Positions 6,964-53,293 of a stretch of 64,000 nt of DNA are shown here, piece after piece; position 1 is the stretch's first letter, and the number at the start of each line of letters is the position of its first letter. The notes beneath the pieces were generated by a model that saw only the letters and a list, made by a program, of their open reading frames with translations, ran no database searches and was not told the origin of the DNA. The translations under genes and the position numbers were made by a program. Source of the DNA: Paludibacteraceae bacterium. Lineage in GTDB: Bacteria; Bacteroidota; Bacteroidia; Bacteroidales; Paludibacteraceae. The DNA is taken from the NCBI GenBank assembly GCA_017461505.1, contig JAFTXV010000008.1, positions 41,349-105,348 of the forward strand, given 5' to 3'.

Positions 6964-8001
6964 TCAGTTGTGCAAAGTGATGACGGTTATTTCTGCGGGT
7001 ACGCCGAGGCGGACAGGTAGGGTGCAACCAATGCCCGTGTTGATGTAGAGGGATTGGGTAGCGTGGTGTGGCGTGGTGTAGTGTTGTGTAGCATTGTTTA
7101 GTGTGGTGTGATACCACCCCTCTGATTCGGTGAACATAAGTGAGGAGAGAGGGTAGCCAAAGAGGCGCACTTGTCCTGCATGCGTGTGTCCGCTGAGAGT
7201 CAGCGGGATGTCGGTAGTAGGTACTACCTCTCCTCGCCAATGCGATGGATCGTGCGTTAGCAATATTTGCAATTTCTCGCCTTTAGCCTCATCGCCTAAT
7301 TGCCTTATCGCCTTCATAATATCTCCTCGGGATATGGTCTGAAATCCTTGTCCCTGACAGGAGGTGTTGTCCACGCCAATGATTTGCAGGTAAGCGCTGT
7401 CCCGCTGAATGAGATAGGACTGATTACGAAGCAGTTGCCAGCCTAATGTGTCGCGTTGGTAGGCGGTTAGTTGTTCCACTTTTTGCTCTTTCTGTTCATC
7501 GGTTAGTCCGTGGTGGTAGAGTGCAAAATCGTGGTTGCCGAGGACACTCATGATACCATCTTTGGCATGCAGTTGGCGGAGCATATCCGTGAATGGAACA
7601 GCTTCTTCTACACCAAAGCCCACGAAGTCACCCGTAAAGCAGATAAGGTCGGGTTGTTGAGCGTTGATGGTATCTATCACGCGTTGCAGGAATGCAGGAT
7701 TGTCGGCAAAGGAGGAGAGGTGCAAGTCGCTGATATGCACAATCTTATATCCGTTGAAGGCGGCGGGTACCTGAGGCGACGTGTAGGTGGTAGGTTGTAC
7801 ACGCAGTTGGAAGCGTCCGAACCAATAGCCATAAAGCATAGTGCCCATGAAGAGAAGCACGAGTGCAAGTCCTGTATAGGCAAAAGGTGCATACGGCATA
7901 GTGTGATGACATAGCCGTGCAACAATCCAACAGAGTAGCCATACAAGGGTAGGGCAGAGAAATAGCACTACGATGCAGAATATAAGAAAAGAGGTAAACA
8001 T
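6964..8001 (-). CDS. Membrane-anchored metallophosphoesterase with two repeat-derived insertions
   Basis: The 345-aa protein has two N-terminal membrane helices (about 3-30 and 42-60) followed by a calcineurin-like phosphoesterase domain. Metal-binding motifs are HISDLHLS (about 88-95), GDFVG, GNHDF and SGHTHAGQ. Relatives hydrolyse phosphodiesters such as lipid or nucleotide derivatives; the substrate here is unknown. I chose ATG 8001 because the -7 box lies at 8006-8013, which leaves almost no 5' leader. Two stretches look inserted: residues about 229-239 (octamer repeat) and 298-317, encoded by exactly six decamers at 7051-7110 between EGWY and LYINTGIG. Confidence 0.85.
   Translation of the reverse strand: MFTSFLIFCIVVLFLCPTLVWLLCWIVARLCHHTMPYAPFAYTGLALVLLFMGTMLYGYWFGRFQLRVQPTTYTSPQVPAAFNGYKIVHISDLHLSSFADNPAFLQRVIDTINAQQPDLICFTGDFVGFGVEEAVPFTDMLRQLHAKDGIMSVLGNHDFALYHHGLTDEQKEQKVEQLTAYQRDTLGWQLLRNQSYLIQRDSAYLQIIGVDNTSCQGQGFQTISRGDIMKAIRQLGDEAKGEKLQILLTHDPSHWRGEVVPTTDIPLTLSGHTHAGQVRLFGYPLSSLMFTESEGWYHTTLNNATQHYTTPHHATQSLYINTGIGCTLPVRLGVPAEITVITLHN
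7051..7110 (-). repeat. In-frame decamer array (6 x 10 bp) inside metallophosphoesterase gene
   Basis: Read on the coding strand the units resemble TACACCACAC and TAAACAATGC. Six units make 60 bp, or 20 codons. The word ACACCACACTAAACAAT also occurs in the leader before aspS (near 60864-60880), and related decamers lie before fabD (53254-53293). Confidence 0.8.
7278..7317 (-). repeat. In-frame octamer array inside metallophosphoesterase gene
   Basis: Plus-strand units GCCTCATC, GCCTAATT, GCCTTATC follow each other at 8-bp spacing. They encode QLGDEAKGEK-like residues and belong to the family also seen at 8267, 25147, 34348, 47495 and 52918. Confidence 0.65.
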
Positions 8002-8118: not shown

Positions 8119-8162
8119 CCCTAGCGCAATGGTAGCGCAATGGTAGCGAAATGGTAATAGGA
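8119..8162. repeat. 11-bp tandem repeat, 4 units
   Basis: Units such as TGGTAGCGCAA and TGGTAGCGAAA repeat at 11-bp spacing just past the end of the DUF4465 gene. Three other arrays with 11-bp units and different words are at 20286, 44033 and 58940. Confidence 0.7.
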
Positions 8163-20285: not shown

Positions 20286-20340
20286 ATCTATCGTGTATCT
20301 AACGTATATCTATCGTGTATCTATCGTATATGTAACGTAG
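20286..20340. repeat. 11-bp tandem repeat, 5 units
   Basis: Units alternate ATCTATCGTGT and ATCTAACGTAT over exactly 55 bp, inside the 590-bp spacer between the 114-aa gene and mutA. The rest of that spacer holds the two divergent promoters and no gene. Confidence 0.8.
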
Positions 20341-24808: not shown

Positions 24809-26023
24809 ATGAAAACAATTCGTGAGATATATCGTATAGGATATGGTCCTAGTAGTAGCCATACTATGGGACCTCGTAAGGCAGCTGAGATTTTTCTGGA
24901 GCATCATCCCGATGCTGCAAAGTATCAAGCGCACTTGTATGGCAGTTTGTCGGCTACAGGCAAAGGTCACTTGACCGATGCAGCCATTATCGATGTGATT
25001 CCAGAGGTGGAGATTGTGTGGCATGATGAGTTTTTGCCATTTCACCCCAATGGCATGCGTTTCTACGCGTGGAACGAGATAGGAGATTTGCTAGATGAGT
25101 GGACTGTATATTCCGTAGGTGGTGGAGCATTGGCAGAAGATCCTGCTTCATCGCCTCATCGCCTTATCGCCTCATCGCCTAGCGGCGAAGCGTCCATCTA
25201 TCCACTTACTCGTTTGAGCGATATCAAGGATTATTGCGATAAGATGGGTTGGGATTATTGGGAATATGTGGAGCACTATGAGGGTAAAGAGATTTGGGAT
25301 TATCTGCGTGAGGTGTGGCAAGTGATGCGTGAGGCAGTAGAACGTGGATTGGACCACGAAGGGGTATTGCCCGGACCATTACACCTCCGTCGCAAGGCAG
25401 CGAGCTATTATATTAAGGTGGCAGGGTATAAGGATAACCTTCGTACACGCGGATTGGTATTCTCTTATGCGCTGGCAGTAAGTGAGGAGAATGCATCGGG
25501 TGGTAAGATTGTTACTGCACCTACCTGTGGTTCTTGTGGTGTGTTGCCAGCGGTGCTGTACCATACATGGCGTTCGCGCGACTTCTCCGAGACGCGTATC
25601 TTACATGCGTTGGCTACAGCCGGATTGATTGGTAATGTCGTGAAAGAGAATGCCTCCATATCTGGTGCCGAAGTAGGTTGTCAGGGTGAGGTTGGTGTGG
25701 CATGTGCGATGGCGTCAGCTGCTGTAAATCAGTTGTTTGGCGGTACGTTGGCGCAGATTGAGTATGCTGCCGAGATGGGCTTGGAGCACCACTTGGGTAT
25801 GACTTGCGACCCCGTATGTGGCTTGGTGCAGATACCGTGTATTGAGCGTAATGCTTTTGCGGCTGCTCGTGCATTGGATAGCAATATGTATGCCGCTTTC
25901 TCCGATGGAACGCATAGCGTATCGTTTGACCGAGTGGTGGATGTGATGAAGCAGACGGGCCATGACCTGCCATCGCTCTATAAGGAAACGGCACAAGGAG
26001 GATTAGCAAAGGATTATAAATAG
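24809..26023 (+). CDS. sdaA: L-serine ammonia-lyase, iron-sulfur type
   Basis: The 404-aa single-chain enzyme deaminates L-serine to pyruvate in the cytoplasm. The beta part begins with the conserved GPSSSHTMGPRKAAEIF; the alpha part holds the [4Fe-4S] cysteines in CGSCGVLPAV and CDPVCGLVQIPC. I chose ATG 24809 because the longer frame to 24767 runs through a heptamer repeat. Residues about 113-126 (SSPHRLIASSPSGE) come from an octamer repeat at 25147-25186 placed between the beta strand region and the following IYPL segment. A heptamer element begins right after the stop. Confidence 0.92.
   Translation: MKTIREIYRIGYGPSSSHTMGPRKAAEIFLEHHPDAAKYQAHLYGSLSATGKGHLTDAAIIDVIPEVEIVWHDEFLPFHPNGMRFYAWNEIGDLLDEWTVYSVGGGALAEDPASSPHRLIASSPSGEASIYPLTRLSDIKDYCDKMGWDYWEYVEHYEGKEIWDYLREVWQVMREAVERGLDHEGVLPGPLHLRRKAASYYIKVAGYKDNLRTRGLVFSYALAVSEENASGGKIVTAPTCGSCGVLPAVLYHTWRSRDFSETRILHALATAGLIGNVVKENASISGAEVGCQGEVGVACAMASAAVNQLFGGTLAQIEYAAEMGLEHHLGMTCDPVCGLVQIPCIERNAFAAARALDSNMYAAFSDGTHSVSFDRVVDVMKQTGHDLPSLYKETAQGGLAKDYK
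25147..25186 (+). repeat. In-frame octamer array in serine dehydratase gene
   Basis: Units TTCATCGC, CTCATCGC, CTTATCGC, CTCATCGC, CTAGCGGC. Same family, other strand, as 34348 and 47495 (GGCGATGA words). Confidence 0.8.
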
Positions 26024-26115
26024 AACCAAGAGCCAAGAACCAAGACATATCACTATCGACTAACCAGACGACACATTTTAGTCTTTGCTCCTGGTTCCTT
26101 GCTCCTTACTCAAAC
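26023..26115. repeat. Two heptamer arrays in inverted orientation
   Basis: The left array (GAACCAA, GAGCCAA, GAACCAA, ending GAC at 26046) and the right array (26081-26115), read on the other strand as GAGCAAG, GAACCAG, GAGCAAA, GAC, face each other across a 34-bp core. The whole lies between the serine dehydratase stop and the aspartokinase start. Confidence 0.75.
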
Positions 26116-26122
26116 AAAGAAT

Positions 26123-27436
26123 ATGAAAGTAATGAAGTTTGGTGGCACCTCTGTAGGTTCGCCACAAAGAATGAAAAGTGTAGTTGAACTGATTGCAGAC
26201 GGTGAGCAAAATCTTGTGGTATTGTCTGCAATGTCGGGCACTACCAATAGTCTTTTGGAGATTGCAGACTACCTCTATAAGCAAAACCAAGAGGGTGCCA
26301 ATGCCTGTATTACCAAACTAGAGGATAAGTACCGCCAACATATTGACCAACTCTATACTACCGATGAGTATAGGAATCAGACTTGGCAATTGTTGCATAG
26401 TATTTTCGACTATATTCGCTCGTTTACGAAGGGTGATTTTGCTGCTCGTGAGGAGAAAATTATCGTGGCGCAAGGTGAGATACTGAGTACCAATATGATG
26501 ACCAACTACCTCTTGGAGCAGGGCTATAACGCAGTCTTATTACCTGCACTCGAGTTTATGCGCACCAACCAAGATGGTGAGCCAGATTTGAAGTATATTC
26601 AAGAGCATGCTAGCAAACAATTGGCACTTTATCCAGATAAGCAAATCTATATCACTCAGGGATTTATCTGTCTCGATGCCGAGGGCGAGATTTCCAATCT
26701 GCAGCGTGGTGGTAGCGACTATACGGCTTCGCTACTCGGTGGCGCATTGTCGGCGTCGGAGATTCAAATTTGGACAGATATCGATGGCATGCACAACAAC
26801 GACCCTCGTTTTGTAGAGAATACTACTCCTGTGAGTCATTTGCACTTTGACGAGGCGGCTGAGTTGGCTTATTTCGGCGCAAAGATTTTGCACCCAACAT
26901 GTATTCAACCTGCCAAATACGCCAACGTGCCTGTTAAACTGCTCAATACGATGGATCCTACTGCGCCTGGTACGGTGATTAGCAATATGGTAGAGCATCG
27001 CAAAATCAAGGCGGTAGCGGCCAAAGATAATATCGTGGCGATAAATATCACTAGTAGCCGAATGTTATTGGCATACGGCTTCTTGCGCAAGGTATTTGAG
27101 ATCTTTGAGAATTATAAGACCAGTATCGATATGATTTGTACCTCAGAGGTGGGTGTGTCTGTGTCAATAGACGATAAAACAAATCTCTTGCCCATACTCA
27201 ACGAACTCAAGAAACTGGGTGTTGTGGAGGTAGATGACAATATGTGTATCATTTGTGTGGTAGGTGATTTGGATTGGAGAAATGTGGGCTTCGAATCGGT
27301 GGCTGCTGAAGCGTTGAAGGATGTACCAGTGCGCATGATTTCGTATGGCGGTAGCAATCACAATATATCGTTCCTCGTTTCTGCTCACGACAAGAAGCGT
27401 GCCCTTGAGTCACTGAGTAAGTATTTGTTTTGGTAA
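26123..27436 (+). CDS. lysC: Aspartate kinase
   Basis: The 437-aa enzyme phosphorylates aspartate, the first step toward lysine, threonine and methionine. The kinase domain has the N-terminal MKFGGTSVGSPQRMKSV and GSDYTASLLGG; two ACT domains fill about 300-437 and probably mediate feedback inhibition. I chose ATG 26123 because the frame upstream (TTG 26099) is repeat DNA. The next gene, 54 bp on, is diaminopimelate decarboxylase, so the pair serves lysine or peptidoglycan precursor synthesis. Confidence 0.95.
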   Translation: MKVMKFGGTSVGSPQRMKSVVELIADGEQNLVVLSAMSGTTNSLLEIADYLYKQNQEGANACITKLEDKYRQHIDQLYTTDEYRNQTWQLLHSIFDYIRSFTKGDFAAREEKIIVAQGEILSTNMMTNYLLEQGYNAVLLPALEFMRTNQDGEPDLKYIQEHASKQLALYPDKQIYITQGFICLDAEGEISNLQRGGSDYTASLLGGALSASEIQIWTDIDGMHNNDPRFVENTTPVSHLHFDEAAELAYFGAKILHPTCIQPAKYANVPVKLLNTMDPTAPGTVISNMVEHRKIKAVAAKDNIVAINITSSRMLLAYGFLRKVFEIFENYKTSIDMICTSEVGVSVSIDDKTNLLPILNELKKLGVVEVDDNMCIICVVGDLDWRNVGFESVAAEALKDVPVRMISYGGSNHNISFLVSAHDKKRALESLSKYLFW

Positions 27437-27478
27437 GAGGTTAAAGGTTAAAGATTAGAGGCTAGAGGTTAGAGTTAT
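27437..27478. repeat. Heptamer array between lysC and lysA, 6 units
   Basis: Units GAGGTTA, AAGGTTA, AAGATTA, GAGGCTA, GAGGTTA, GAGTTAT, then AGGCAAGA, starting immediately after the lysC stop. Same words as the in-frame arrays in cinA. Confidence 0.85.
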
Positions 27479-37626: not shown

Positions 37627-38198
37627 TTCAAAATACATTAGTTAGCTTGGATGTCCTGGAGAAGGACTTCTGCTGCGACTTGGATAAATGTCGCGGTTGT
37701 TGTTGCATCGAGGGTGATGCGGGTGCACCATTGACAGACGAAGAGGAGGAGAAGATCCGTGAGATACTTCCTATTATCCTGCCTGATATGACCAAGGAAG
37801 CACGTGCCGTAGTAGAAGCACAAGGGTTGTCGTATCTCGATCCATCCGGTGAAAAAGTCACATCTATCGTTAATGATAAAGATTGTGTCTTTGCCCGCAC
37901 TGACCACAATGGCTGGTGCTATTGCCTTATCGAGAAAGCATACAATGCAGGGAAGATTGATTTCAAAAAGCCTATTTCATGCCATCTTTATCCTATCCGC
38001 CTTAATCATGTAGGCGATATGATTGGGGTGGAGTATCATCGTTGGGATATTTGCCATTGTGCCCGCCAACTGGGAAAGAAACTGCATTTGCCTATCTATC
38101 AGTTTCTTAAAGAGCCACTTATTCGTCGTTTCGGGCAAGAGTGGTATGATGAACTCTGCCTTGTTGCCAATGAATGGCACAAGCAGGTTAAAGGTTAG
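37617..38198 (+). CDS. DUF3109 family cysteine-rich protein
   Basis: The 193-aa protein has a cysteine cluster at the start (FCCDLDKCRGCCCIEG, about 19-34) and further Cys/His pairs (DCVFARTDHNGWCYC, SCHLYP, CHCARQLG). This pattern is typical of the DUF3109/YkgJ-like proteins, which may bind Zn or an Fe-S cluster; function is unknown. I chose ATG 37617, inside the end of mntP. The last three residues (VKG) and the stop codon lie in a heptamer repeat. Confidence 0.85.
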   Translation: MFLIQNTLVSLDVLEKDFCCDLDKCRGCCCIEGDAGAPLTDEEEEKIREILPIILPDMTKEARAVVEAQGLSYLDPSGEKVTSIVNDKDCVFARTDHNGWCYCLIEKAYNAGKIDFKKPISCHLYPIRLNHVGDMIGVEYHRWDICHCARQLGKKLHLPIYQFLKEPLIRRFGQEWYDELCLVANEWHKQVKG

Positions 38199-38219
38199 AG
38201 GTTATAGATTAAAGGCAGA
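38185..38219. repeat. Heptamer array across the DUF3109 stop codon
   Basis: Units AGGTTAA, AGGTTAG, AGGTTAT, AGATTAA, AGGCAGA. The stop of the DUF3109 gene (TAG, 38196-38198) is part of the array, and cinA starts 2 bp after it. Confidence 0.8.
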
Positions 38220-38221
38220 GA

Positions 38222-39520
38222 ATGAAAGCAGAAATCATTACCATAGGCGATGAATTGCTGATTGGGCAGGTGGTAGATACCAACTCGGCATGGATGGCAG
38301 AGCGCCTCAATGAGGCGGGGATTGAATTGTATCAGATTACCTCCGTACATGATGATCGTGAACATATACTCAAAGCATTGGATGAGGCCTTCTCTCGTGC
38401 AGATATAGTTCTCACCACGGGCGGCTTGGGTCCTACCAAAGATGATATCACCAAGCATGTGATGTGCGAATACTTTGGCACATCACTCGTTGAGGATGCT
38501 AGTGTGCGTGCGCATATACATGAACTATATAAGGAGCGCCCCGAGGTGCTCAATCGCCTAACGGCTACCCAATGGCTTGTACCAGCATCTGCAACTATCC
38601 TGCCCAATAGAGTAGGCAGTGCACCGATTATGGTGTTTGAGAATGAGGTTAAAGGTGAAAGGTTAGAGGTTAGAGGCGAGGGACAAAATTCAAAATTCTT
38701 AATTGCTATGCCTGGCGTGCCGCATGAGATGAAGATTGCTATGACAGAGCAGGTGATGCCGTATATAAGGTTAAAGGTTAGAGGTGAAAGGTTAGAGGCT
38801 GGTGATATTATCCATAGAACAATTTTATTATCTGGTATAGCAGAGTCCACCTTGGCAATTCGCATCGAGGACTGGGAAAATGCTTTGCCCGATAGCATGC
38901 ACCTCGCTTATCTGCCCAAAGATGGCACAATTCGTTTGCGACTGAGTACGTATGGCGAGGCGACAGCTGAAGAACTCCAATCACATATTGACACCCTTCT
39001 TCCGCTTATCAGCGATTATCTGCTTGCCACCGAGGACATCTCGCTAGAGGCATTGGCTGGTCGTTTACTCAAGCAGCATGCCATGACTATTGCTACCGCT
39101 GAGAGTTGCACTGGTGGTCGTCTAGCAGCTGCATTGAATGTGCAGTCGGGCTCATCGGCTTATTATATGGGTTCGGTGGTAGCATACGACAATCGTATCA
39201 AAGAGCAAGTGCTGGGCGTTGCGCATGATACGTTAATGGAATACGGCGCTGTGAGCGAACAGACGGTTCGCGAGATGGCTGAGGGTGTTCGCACACTAAT
39301 GAATACGGATTATGCCATTGCTACCTCTGGAATAGCAGGTCCAACAGGTGGTACAAAAGATAAACCCGTAGGAACCGTATGGATTGCTTGGGCTACACCA
39401 ACAGGTACAGAAGCACGATGTTTCCATTTTGGCGTAGCTCGTGAGCGTGAGCAAATCACCATGCGTGCAGTCAACGAAGCTCTTATTCATTTGATAAAAT
39501 CCATAAAGACGAAACACTAG
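38222..39520 (+). CDS. cinA: CinA family protein with two in-frame repeat arrays
   Basis: The 432-aa protein has the N-terminal MoCF-like domain (IGDELLIGQVVDTNSAWMAE; TTGGLGPTKDD) and the C-terminal nicotinamide-nucleotide amidase domain (ATAESCTGGRLAAALN, SGIAGPTGGTKDKPVGTVWIA). It probably recycles damaged or spent pyridine nucleotides. Residues 142-162 and about 182-194 are heptamer-encoded (EVKGERLEVRGEG and RLKVRGERLEAG), flanking the conserved LIAMPGVPHEMK. All catalytic motifs survive. Confidence 0.93.
   Translation: MKAEIITIGDELLIGQVVDTNSAWMAERLNEAGIELYQITSVHDDREHILKALDEAFSRADIVLTTGGLGPTKDDITKHVMCEYFGTSLVEDASVRAHIHELYKERPEVLNRLTATQWLVPASATILPNRVGSAPIMVFENEVKGERLEVRGEGQNSKFLIAMPGVPHEMKIAMTEQVMPYIRLKVRGERLEAGDIIHRTILLSGIAESTLAIRIEDWENALPDSMHLAYLPKDGTIRLRLSTYGEATAEELQSHIDTLLPLISDYLLATEDISLEALAGRLLKQHAMTIATAESCTGGRLAAALNVQSGSSAYYMGSVVAYDNRIKEQVLGVAHDTLMEYGAVSEQTVREMAEGVRTLMNTDYAIATSGIAGPTGGTKDKPVGTVWIAWATPTGTEARCFHFGVAREREQITMRAVNEALIHLIKSIKTKH
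38645..38707 (+). repeat. In-frame heptamer array 1 in cinA (9 units, 63 bp)
   Basis: Units begin GAGGTTA, AAGGTGA, AAGGTTA, GAGGTTA, GAGGCGA and drift to AATTCAA/AATTCTT. Sixty-three bp equal 21 codons. The second unit has GGTGA instead of GGTTA exactly where GGT-TAA would be read. Confidence 0.85.
38767..38801 (+). repeat. In-frame heptamer array 2 in cinA (5 units)
   Basis: Units AAGGTTA, AAGGTTA, GAGGTGA, AAGGTTA, GAGGCTG. Again the only GGTGA unit sits where GGTTA would give an in-frame stop. Confidence 0.85.
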
Positions 39521-44032: not shown

Positions 44033-44076
44033 GTTCCTATGAAGTCACTATGAAGTCCCTATGAAGTTCCTATAGT
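44033..44076. repeat. 11-bp tandem repeat, 4 units
   Basis: Units GTTCCTATGAA, GTCACTATGAA, GTCCCTATGAA, GTTCCTATAGT in the spacer between the ALDH start and the SDR stop. Confidence 0.8.
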
Positions 44077-53253: not shown

Positions 53254-53293
53254 AATACTACACCACACTACACCATACTACACGACACAATTA
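53254..53293 (+). repeat. Decamer array in fabD leader
   Basis: AATACTACAC, CACACTACAC, CATACTACAC, GACACAATTA directly before the start codon. Related decamers precede aspS and lie inside the metallophosphoesterase gene. Confidence 0.8.

Follow-up and report, generated by a model that had tools for sequence, protein, structure and literature searches.

In most genomes heptanucleotides reportedly form the most abundant class of longer repeats (Mrazek 2007, cited in PMC4679880 and PMC4692102). For long heptanucleotide repeats polymerase slippage has been proposed, and tandem heptanucleotides are also described for Calothrix (both cited in PMC4679880 and PMC4692102). Direct repeats of the heptamer TAACTGA were found in marine Beggiatoaceae, in Cyanobacteria and in some Bacteroidetes; most of them are intergenic, some overlap the stop codon of the upstream gene and a few lie within ORFs, where stop codons limit their placement (PMC4679880). 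The heptamers GGGAATC / GGGGAYT of Xanthomonas and Nostoc are dispersed, and many of them are located on the coding strand less than 50 bp downstream of stop codons (PMC4692102). In addition, the palindromic elements of Rickettsia are inserted in frame in metabolic genes and are thought to be compatible with the fold of the proteins (PMC10969869).

The heptamer arrays described here, from the cinA gene and many further sites of a Paludibacteraceae genome, resemble each of these systems in part. As in the dispersed heptanucleotide repeats of other Bacteria, the units are tandem far above chance and the arrays are mostly intergenic, near or overlapping stop codons. With the TAACTGA repeats they have in common the seven-base direct unit, the mostly intergenic position, the overlap with stop codons and the small number of arrays in ORFs. 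However, TAACTGA is, in the passages that describe it, one word with all forward frames closed (PMC4679880), whereas many words, open mixed units and recurrent loops are found here. Dispersed heptamers and closeness to stop codons are shared with Xanthomonas and Nostoc, whose repeats are characterized in the corresponding passages by runs of at least three G with the capacity to form G-quadruplexes (PMC4692102). The GGTTARA family, in contrast, contains only GG, many other words are AT-rich, and in-gene arrays have coding-strand orientation; the at least four tracts of at least three G typical of a G-quadruplex are absent from the cinA arrays, where the sole GGG follows array 1. In-frame repeat DNA within metabolic genes is a feature in common with Rickettsia, but the elements there are reported as palindromes of about 150 bp (PMC10969869), whereas the present arrays are short tandem heptamers without palindromes and with low flank information beyond the array edges. 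The passages on the class of long heptanucleotide repeats hold neither an in-frame use in conserved enzymes nor lineage-specific words per site. These sources already describe bacterial heptanucleotide arrays, their proximity to stop codons and the restriction that stop codons impose (PMC4679880, PMC4692102). For heptamer arrays recurring in identical loops of conserved enzymes no report was found in the open-licence literature searched.

The window, i.e. the whole stretch of DNA analysed, comprises 64,000 nucleotides and belongs to a 1.74-Mb draft genome (G000; here L and G numbers designate loci and genomes), which is 82% complete. Its features relevant here are the following, all on the + strand:

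27432..27473, +, spacer array beginning at the stop codon that closes the gene predicted at 26099-27436
38186..38213, +, spacer array between the upstream gene and cinA, providing the TAG stop codon of the upstream gene (38196-38198)
38222..39520, +, cinA, 432 codons, open throughout (ORF list; Pfam MoCF_biosynth, CinA_KH, CinA)
38647..38681, +, heptamer array 1, five in-frame units in loop 1, within the MoCF domain, peptide VKGERLEVRGE
38654..38660, +, GGTGAAA unit of array 1 where GGTTARA would give TAA/TAG
38675..38681, +, GGCGAGG unit of array 1, likewise in the GGTTA stop phase, absent from the earlier note
38684..38704, +, second heptamer word CAAAATT CAAAATT CTTAATT in loop 1, directly 3' of array 1, peptide QNSKFLI
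38769..38796, +, heptamer array 2, four in-frame units in loop 2, between the MoCF and KH domains
38783..38789, +, GGTGAAA unit of array 2 where GGTTARA would give TAA/TAG

The product of cinA contains the three Pfam domains of the family (MoCF, KH and CinA) above the cut-off and can be aligned across nearly its full length to the solved CinA-type proteins 6mr3 and 4ct8. Both array sites are gapped in the alignment to 4ct8, and both loops are predicted to be exposed on the protein. Read as strict units, array 1 consists of GGTTAAA GGTGAAA GGTTAGA GGTTAGA GGCGAGG (38647-38681) and array 2 of GGTTAAA GGTTAGA GGTGAAA GGTTAGA (38769-38796). These units confirm that both heptamer arrays lie in frame inside cinA and that the stop-phase unit is altered in both, as had been claimed in the earlier note: the units starting at codon position 1 (38654, 38675 and 38783) are never GGTTA. 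The nine units which the same note had counted at 38645-38707 are really five GGTTARA-type units followed by the CAAAATT-type word at 38684-38704; one extra 21-nt copy of this second word is present in L032 in the alignment with relatives.

For the comparison with relatives, CinA sequences were taken from the best 30 loci of 58 matching genomes (61 drawn) and from the best 80 matches listed in a further scan. The resulting 111 rows yielded 82 distinct CinA of the genus group once the 13 sequences of the outgroup, L126 and all duplicates had been removed. The nearest named relatives by CinA are, among the matches listed, Paludibacteraceae and Bacteroidales genomes mostly assembled from animal guts. 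The loop-1 segment has a length of 90 nt in the window's cinA and of 48 nt in 58 of the 82 genus-group sequences and in all 13 outgroup sequences, and period-7 runs in the loops of the outgroup CinA amounted to 0 of 13 at the detection threshold used. Presence or absence of the array distinguishes L061 and L127 by one 42-nt gap, and one 21-nt difference in cinA exists between L052 and L055. Judged from these alignments, the heptamer arrays of cinA are real insertions; the short loop 1 of relatives and outgroups and the 42-nt gap support what had been proposed before, namely real insertions kept open by selection.

Over most of cinA the identity of L063 and L127 is about 95%, with another divergent stretch near column 660; at loop 1 the two differ in the array and in a short adjoining patch of substitutions. 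This region (about nt 420-500 of cinA) looks like a short-tract replacement by recombination. In loop 2 both share one identical insert, which is not heptameric, contains two small inverted repeats and encodes RSQSELQNGASAYS; it is another kind of repeat-like DNA in that loop. Furthermore, the CinA matches of G012, G016, G040 and G050 stop at query residue 269 or 298 with one internal stop codon each, and these genomes may have lost the C-terminal CinA domain or encode it separately.

The array word is not restricted to cinA. The heptamer doublet GGTKARAGGTKARA has 201 matches in G000, compared with 0 for the reversed control pattern, and occurs in 46 of 61 genus genomes (own included), with counts from 0 to 201. 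All eight close relatives that were checked carry it beyond cinA as well (13 to 145 matches), so the objection foreseen in the earlier note, that close relatives might lack such arrays elsewhere, falls away. Among 295 genomes sampled from the order, 17 contain the word as a triplet. The reversed control has 41 matches in G027, whose own count of the GGTTARA doublet is 0; such matches elsewhere in the genus are expected if other genomes hold other words, and those of G027 probably represent another heptamer word family. Within G000 the arrays were sampled in 39 stretches around arrays plus the window, with genes called by our own hexamer model; 10 of 110 GGTT-GGTT doublets, and the array at C9:257460, lie outside this sample. 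Among the 72 arrays 30 are intergenic, 21 extend across a gene edge and 21 are located wholly within genes. The hosts of GGTTARA arrays include D-Ala-D-Ala ligase, chorismate synthase (AroC), RibD, PheT, IspD, an amylase-type enzyme (presumably the glycogen branching enzyme), a PP-loop protein (which we take to be TilS) and an ABC ATPase with a TOBE domain. The 20 sense in-gene arrays include two matches of two units each, in GcvT (L179) and in a pseudouridine synthase (L163); the former, and perhaps the latter, may be due to chance. A RibD-type gene at L151 (2501-2584) contains a 12-unit array in 21-bp order (GGTTAGA GGTGARA GGTGAGR, four times), which encodes four heptapeptides of the RLEVRGE/RLEVKGE type.

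If the units of the 20 sense in-gene arrays of G000 are sorted by the codon position of their first base, position 1 comprises GGTT 0, GGTG 20, GGCG 6 and GGCA 2, position 2 GGTT 22 and GGTG 0, and position 3, in which both units are harmless, GGTT 19, GGTG 8, GGCG 5 and GGCT 1. Seven arrays of relatives show GGTT/GGTG ratios of 0/5, 9/0 and 3/5 at positions 1, 2 and 3. The empty GGTG cell reflects a stop phase of GGTGA's own, one base on (xGG-TGA), which the earlier note had overlooked. Since an open frame has no stops, the two zero cells of the table arise by construction, and the sole independent test of GGTGA is the comparison of the free phase with the spacers, a small one with 27 units: GGTG makes up 8 of 27 units (30%) in the free phase and 41 of 130 (32%) in the sampled intergenic arrays of G000 (GGTT 89, GGTG 41; p = 1.0). 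The phase pattern is that of a stop-codon filter acting on one pool of units, and the free phase, with its 27 units, shows nothing special about GGTGA.

These counts also decide what remains of the proposed role of GGTGA. Its absence from intergenic arrays is limited to the window with its two spacer arrays; genome-wide, 66 of the 201 exact doublets start with GGTGA and the spacer units include it at the frequency just given, and GGTGA was accordingly rejected as a unit confined to coding arrays. An insertion process tolerated only with this unit is not needed, given the equal frequencies in free phase and spacers and the absence of GGTGA from the phase in which it would itself be a stop (0 GGTG compared with 22 GGTT). 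Tabulated by phase, GGTGA is as common in spacers and in the sole other phase allowed to it, an outcome that the earlier note itself had named as speaking against its reading. Other words are modified in a similar manner: L052 has TTCAACT within a CTAAACG array where CTAAACG would give TAA, and L229 has CCAATCA within a CCAATGA array where TGA would arise. In spacer arrays 53 of 315 readings of four-unit windows in a coding-strand frame (17%) are already open, so that arrays open from the outset are not uncommon.

The location of period-7 runs was analysed in 133 loci (132 of relatives and one own), which remained after 22 of 155 had been dropped as near duplicates. The density is 0.845 per kb in noncoding and 0.153 per kb in coding DNA, a 5.5-fold difference. 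Period 7 accounts for 159 runs in these loci, compared with 9 of period 6, 42 of period 8, 13 of period 9, 3 of period 10 and 37 of period 11. The own locus (L220, two in-gene arrays) was counted for density and for stop-prone words and was excluded from the hydropathy test and from the phase table of relatives.

In G000 the ratio of sense to antisense orientation is 20:1 for the 21 in-gene arrays and 18:3 for those at gene edges. Wholly intergenic arrays between co-directional genes have no strand bias (9 sense, 11 antisense), so only arrays in genes and at gene ends are biased. If stop codons were the only constraint, the antisense orientation would be favoured, given that among readings of GGTTARA-type four-unit windows 17% are open in sense and 38% on the opposite strand; the ratio of 20:1 thus points to the character of the peptide or to a process that itself prefers one orientation. 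Of 56 in-gene arrays from the relatives' loci, 49 are more hydrophilic when translated from the coding strand than from the other (mean hydropathy -1.03 vs 0.66; p = 5e-8; 14 of 70 arrays dropped). Words that would contain a stop if the array were uniform are found on the coding strand of 16 of 59 in-gene arrays of the 133 loci and on the other strand of 36 of 59 (p = 0.0004), with 13 of 72 excluded for lack of a single coding strand. Beside stop codons, stop-prone words are present on 37 of 45 sense strands, compared with 45 of 84 strands of other noncoding arrays (p = 0.001), an excess that is partly due to the inclusion of the stop codon itself in such arrays. Outside genes 20 of 30 sense arrays overlap a stop codon or begin at most 8 nt from it (median 5), and 22 of 26 arrays with sense neighbours on both sides are closer to the preceding stop than to the following start. 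Arrays facing antisense genes are about 180 nt away (medians 182 and 179). Within the 40 bases on each side of the arrays little conservation is seen beyond the first few bases.

Stronger than the stop-phase observation on GGTGA is the recurrence of different words in identical loops. The 82 CinA contain 48 period-7 runs, of which 39 are in the two loops (59 of 432 residues), 9 at the C-terminus and 0 elsewhere; all 33 period-14 runs are within the two loops, and the remaining periods from 4 to 15 yield 0 to 5 runs each. Many of these sequences are related and the run counts are hence not independent. The period-7 runs form 16 word clusters, e.g. AAAATTC, AAAGTCG, AGAGGTG/AAAGGTT, AAACACT, AGCATTC, AATTACG and AATGGAC. 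When mapped on a CinA tree computed from the sequence outside the loops, loop 1 shows 9 words and 13 changes and loop 2 shows 12 words and 24 changes, where changes may be gains or losses and the numbers depend on clustering and detection thresholds.

For AroC and IspD each set comprised the gene of G000 plus the 29 best loci from relatives, out of 59 and 57 matching genomes, respectively (own included). In the 30 IspD sequences all 17 period-7 runs, with many words, belong to two loops (11 at residues 99-112 and 6 at residue 166), and each remaining period between 4 and 15, with the exception of 14, has 0 to 3 runs. In the 30 AroC sequences 6 of 9 period-7 runs share one loop (residues 52-58; L194 contributes two), two are at residues 292-293 and one at residue 81; runs of period 8 (3), 11 (5), 12 (4) and 15 (2) occur as well. 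A search for solved AroC structures at E 1e-70 gave no match, and the threshold was then loosened to 1e-40. In these sequences IspD, and mostly AroC, behave like CinA, with recurrent loops and varying words. Two unrelated words stand side by side within one loop in CinA and in IspD.

The explanation that we consider probable is that heptamer arrays are seeded throughout the genome and that purifying selection, through stop phase, hydrophilic strand and tolerant loop, sets where they survive. The generator would be an expansion in seven-base steps, likely by slippage or unequal recombination. As the pattern of locations indicates, purifying selection decides on the surviving sites, i.e. spacers, often at the stop codon of the preceding gene, and a few tolerant loops of genes. 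Inside a gene three heptamers equal seven codons, and steps of 21 nt would be the ones that survive. An array would be retained only if no unit yields a stop in its phase, and mostly if the encoded peptide is hydrophilic; mixed GGTTARA/GGTGARA arrays can satisfy both demands, and identical loops accept different words in different lineages.

How far words are shared bears on the generator. Slippage alone predicts a private word for each array, and the presence of GGTTARA at dozens of loci of G000 counts against that. Across the genus group shared words exceed the expectation from composition (7.9% vs 3.2-3.5% of pairs). Words are not clearly more alike within than between genomes (6/81 vs 179/2798; 629 of 2000 permutations as high), so a copying process operating per genome is unsupported, and genome-specific words as a rule were rejected on the same counts. 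Among 57 indels of at least four bases, before merging of repeats, no ladder of 7-bp indels was seen between close relatives. It is conceivable, but in our estimate unlikely, that Bacteroidales hold a shared repertoire of heptamers which is actively copied into stop codons and fixed enzyme loops and rewrites the loop with a new heptapeptide in each lineage; if so, it would constantly supply essential proteins with peptide insertions.

A machinery dedicated to copying, such as an RNA-templated reverse transcriptase or a mobile carrier which writes heptamers into stops and loops, would account for one word at dozens of loci in G000, for the 20 of 30 sense arrays at stop codons and for the two unrelated words adjoining in one loop of CinA and IspD, but we regard it as rather improbable. 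RVT_1 (PF00078) is present in 14 of 61 genus genomes, in 5 of 17 with at least 20 doublets and in 9 of 44 others, showing little relation to the number of doublets, and was not detected in the word-rich G000 (82% complete), G014, G034 and G035 (97-98% complete); a reverse transcriptase as common cause was rejected on this distribution, which refers to RVT_1 only and to draft genomes. The little conservation within 40 bases of the arrays, where five loci share a neighbouring 11-bp element, and the lack of a clear within-genome excess of shared words speak against copying as well. There is only a slight probability that the loop peptides are functional and positively selected, e.g. as a shared charged tag VKGERLE: a nearly identical hydrophilic heptapeptide is found across many proteins of G000, and arrays are kept in L061 and L063, which are about 85% identical in CinA, but relatives have quite different peptides or no insert at those loops, and L127 is without the loop-1 array in spite of its identity to L063 of about 95% along most of cinA.

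Phase variation, with arrays as slippage switches for cinA and other genes, is very improbable. Seven is not a multiple of three, and a heptanucleotide repeat has reportedly been linked elsewhere with the phase-variable neuO. However, the hosts are housekeeping enzymes (AroC, PheT, D-Ala ligase, RibD, IspD and the PP-loop protein), the arrays inside genes comprise 2 to 12 units and are mostly mixed, and the sole clean in-gene length change observed is the 21 nt between L052 and L055; single stop codons in the matches of L042 (CinA) and L202 (AroC) are the normal gene end. Chance codon usage or an artefact of the assembly can practically be dismissed as the origin of the cinA repeats. Although G000 is a draft genome of 82% completeness, the six exact doublets in cinA were reached in none of 2000 synonymous reshuffles (mean 0.06) and in none of 2000 codon-order shuffles, and very similar arrays exist at equivalent sites of independent records (both arrays in L061, the first in L063); reshuffles and relatives' arrays together rule this origin out.

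The arrays show how non-triplet repeats can persist in conserved genes, the filter consisting of two interlocking stop phases, a hydrophilic strand and a tolerant loop. Different words in one loop of one enzyme offer many natural replicates for studying the frequent period of seven among bacterial repeats and the spread of words.

Other tandem repeats accompany the heptamers. A conserved flank as sign of a carrier was rejected: there were 142 flank hits, and the five loci inspected trace to an 11-bp tandem element, AATCACTAACT, which in about four to five copies adjoins heptamer arrays of G000 at L149 (about 2400-2490), L152, L158, L163 and L178. At some of these loci the similarity reaches beyond the repeat. 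The period-11 runs of the 133 loci are distributed with 23 outside genes, 5 at edges and 9 in genes. The window itself contains tandem arrays of 8-, 10- and 11-bp units at 7058-7110, 8122-8156, 20286-20339, 25148-25180, 44036-44073 and 53257-53288.
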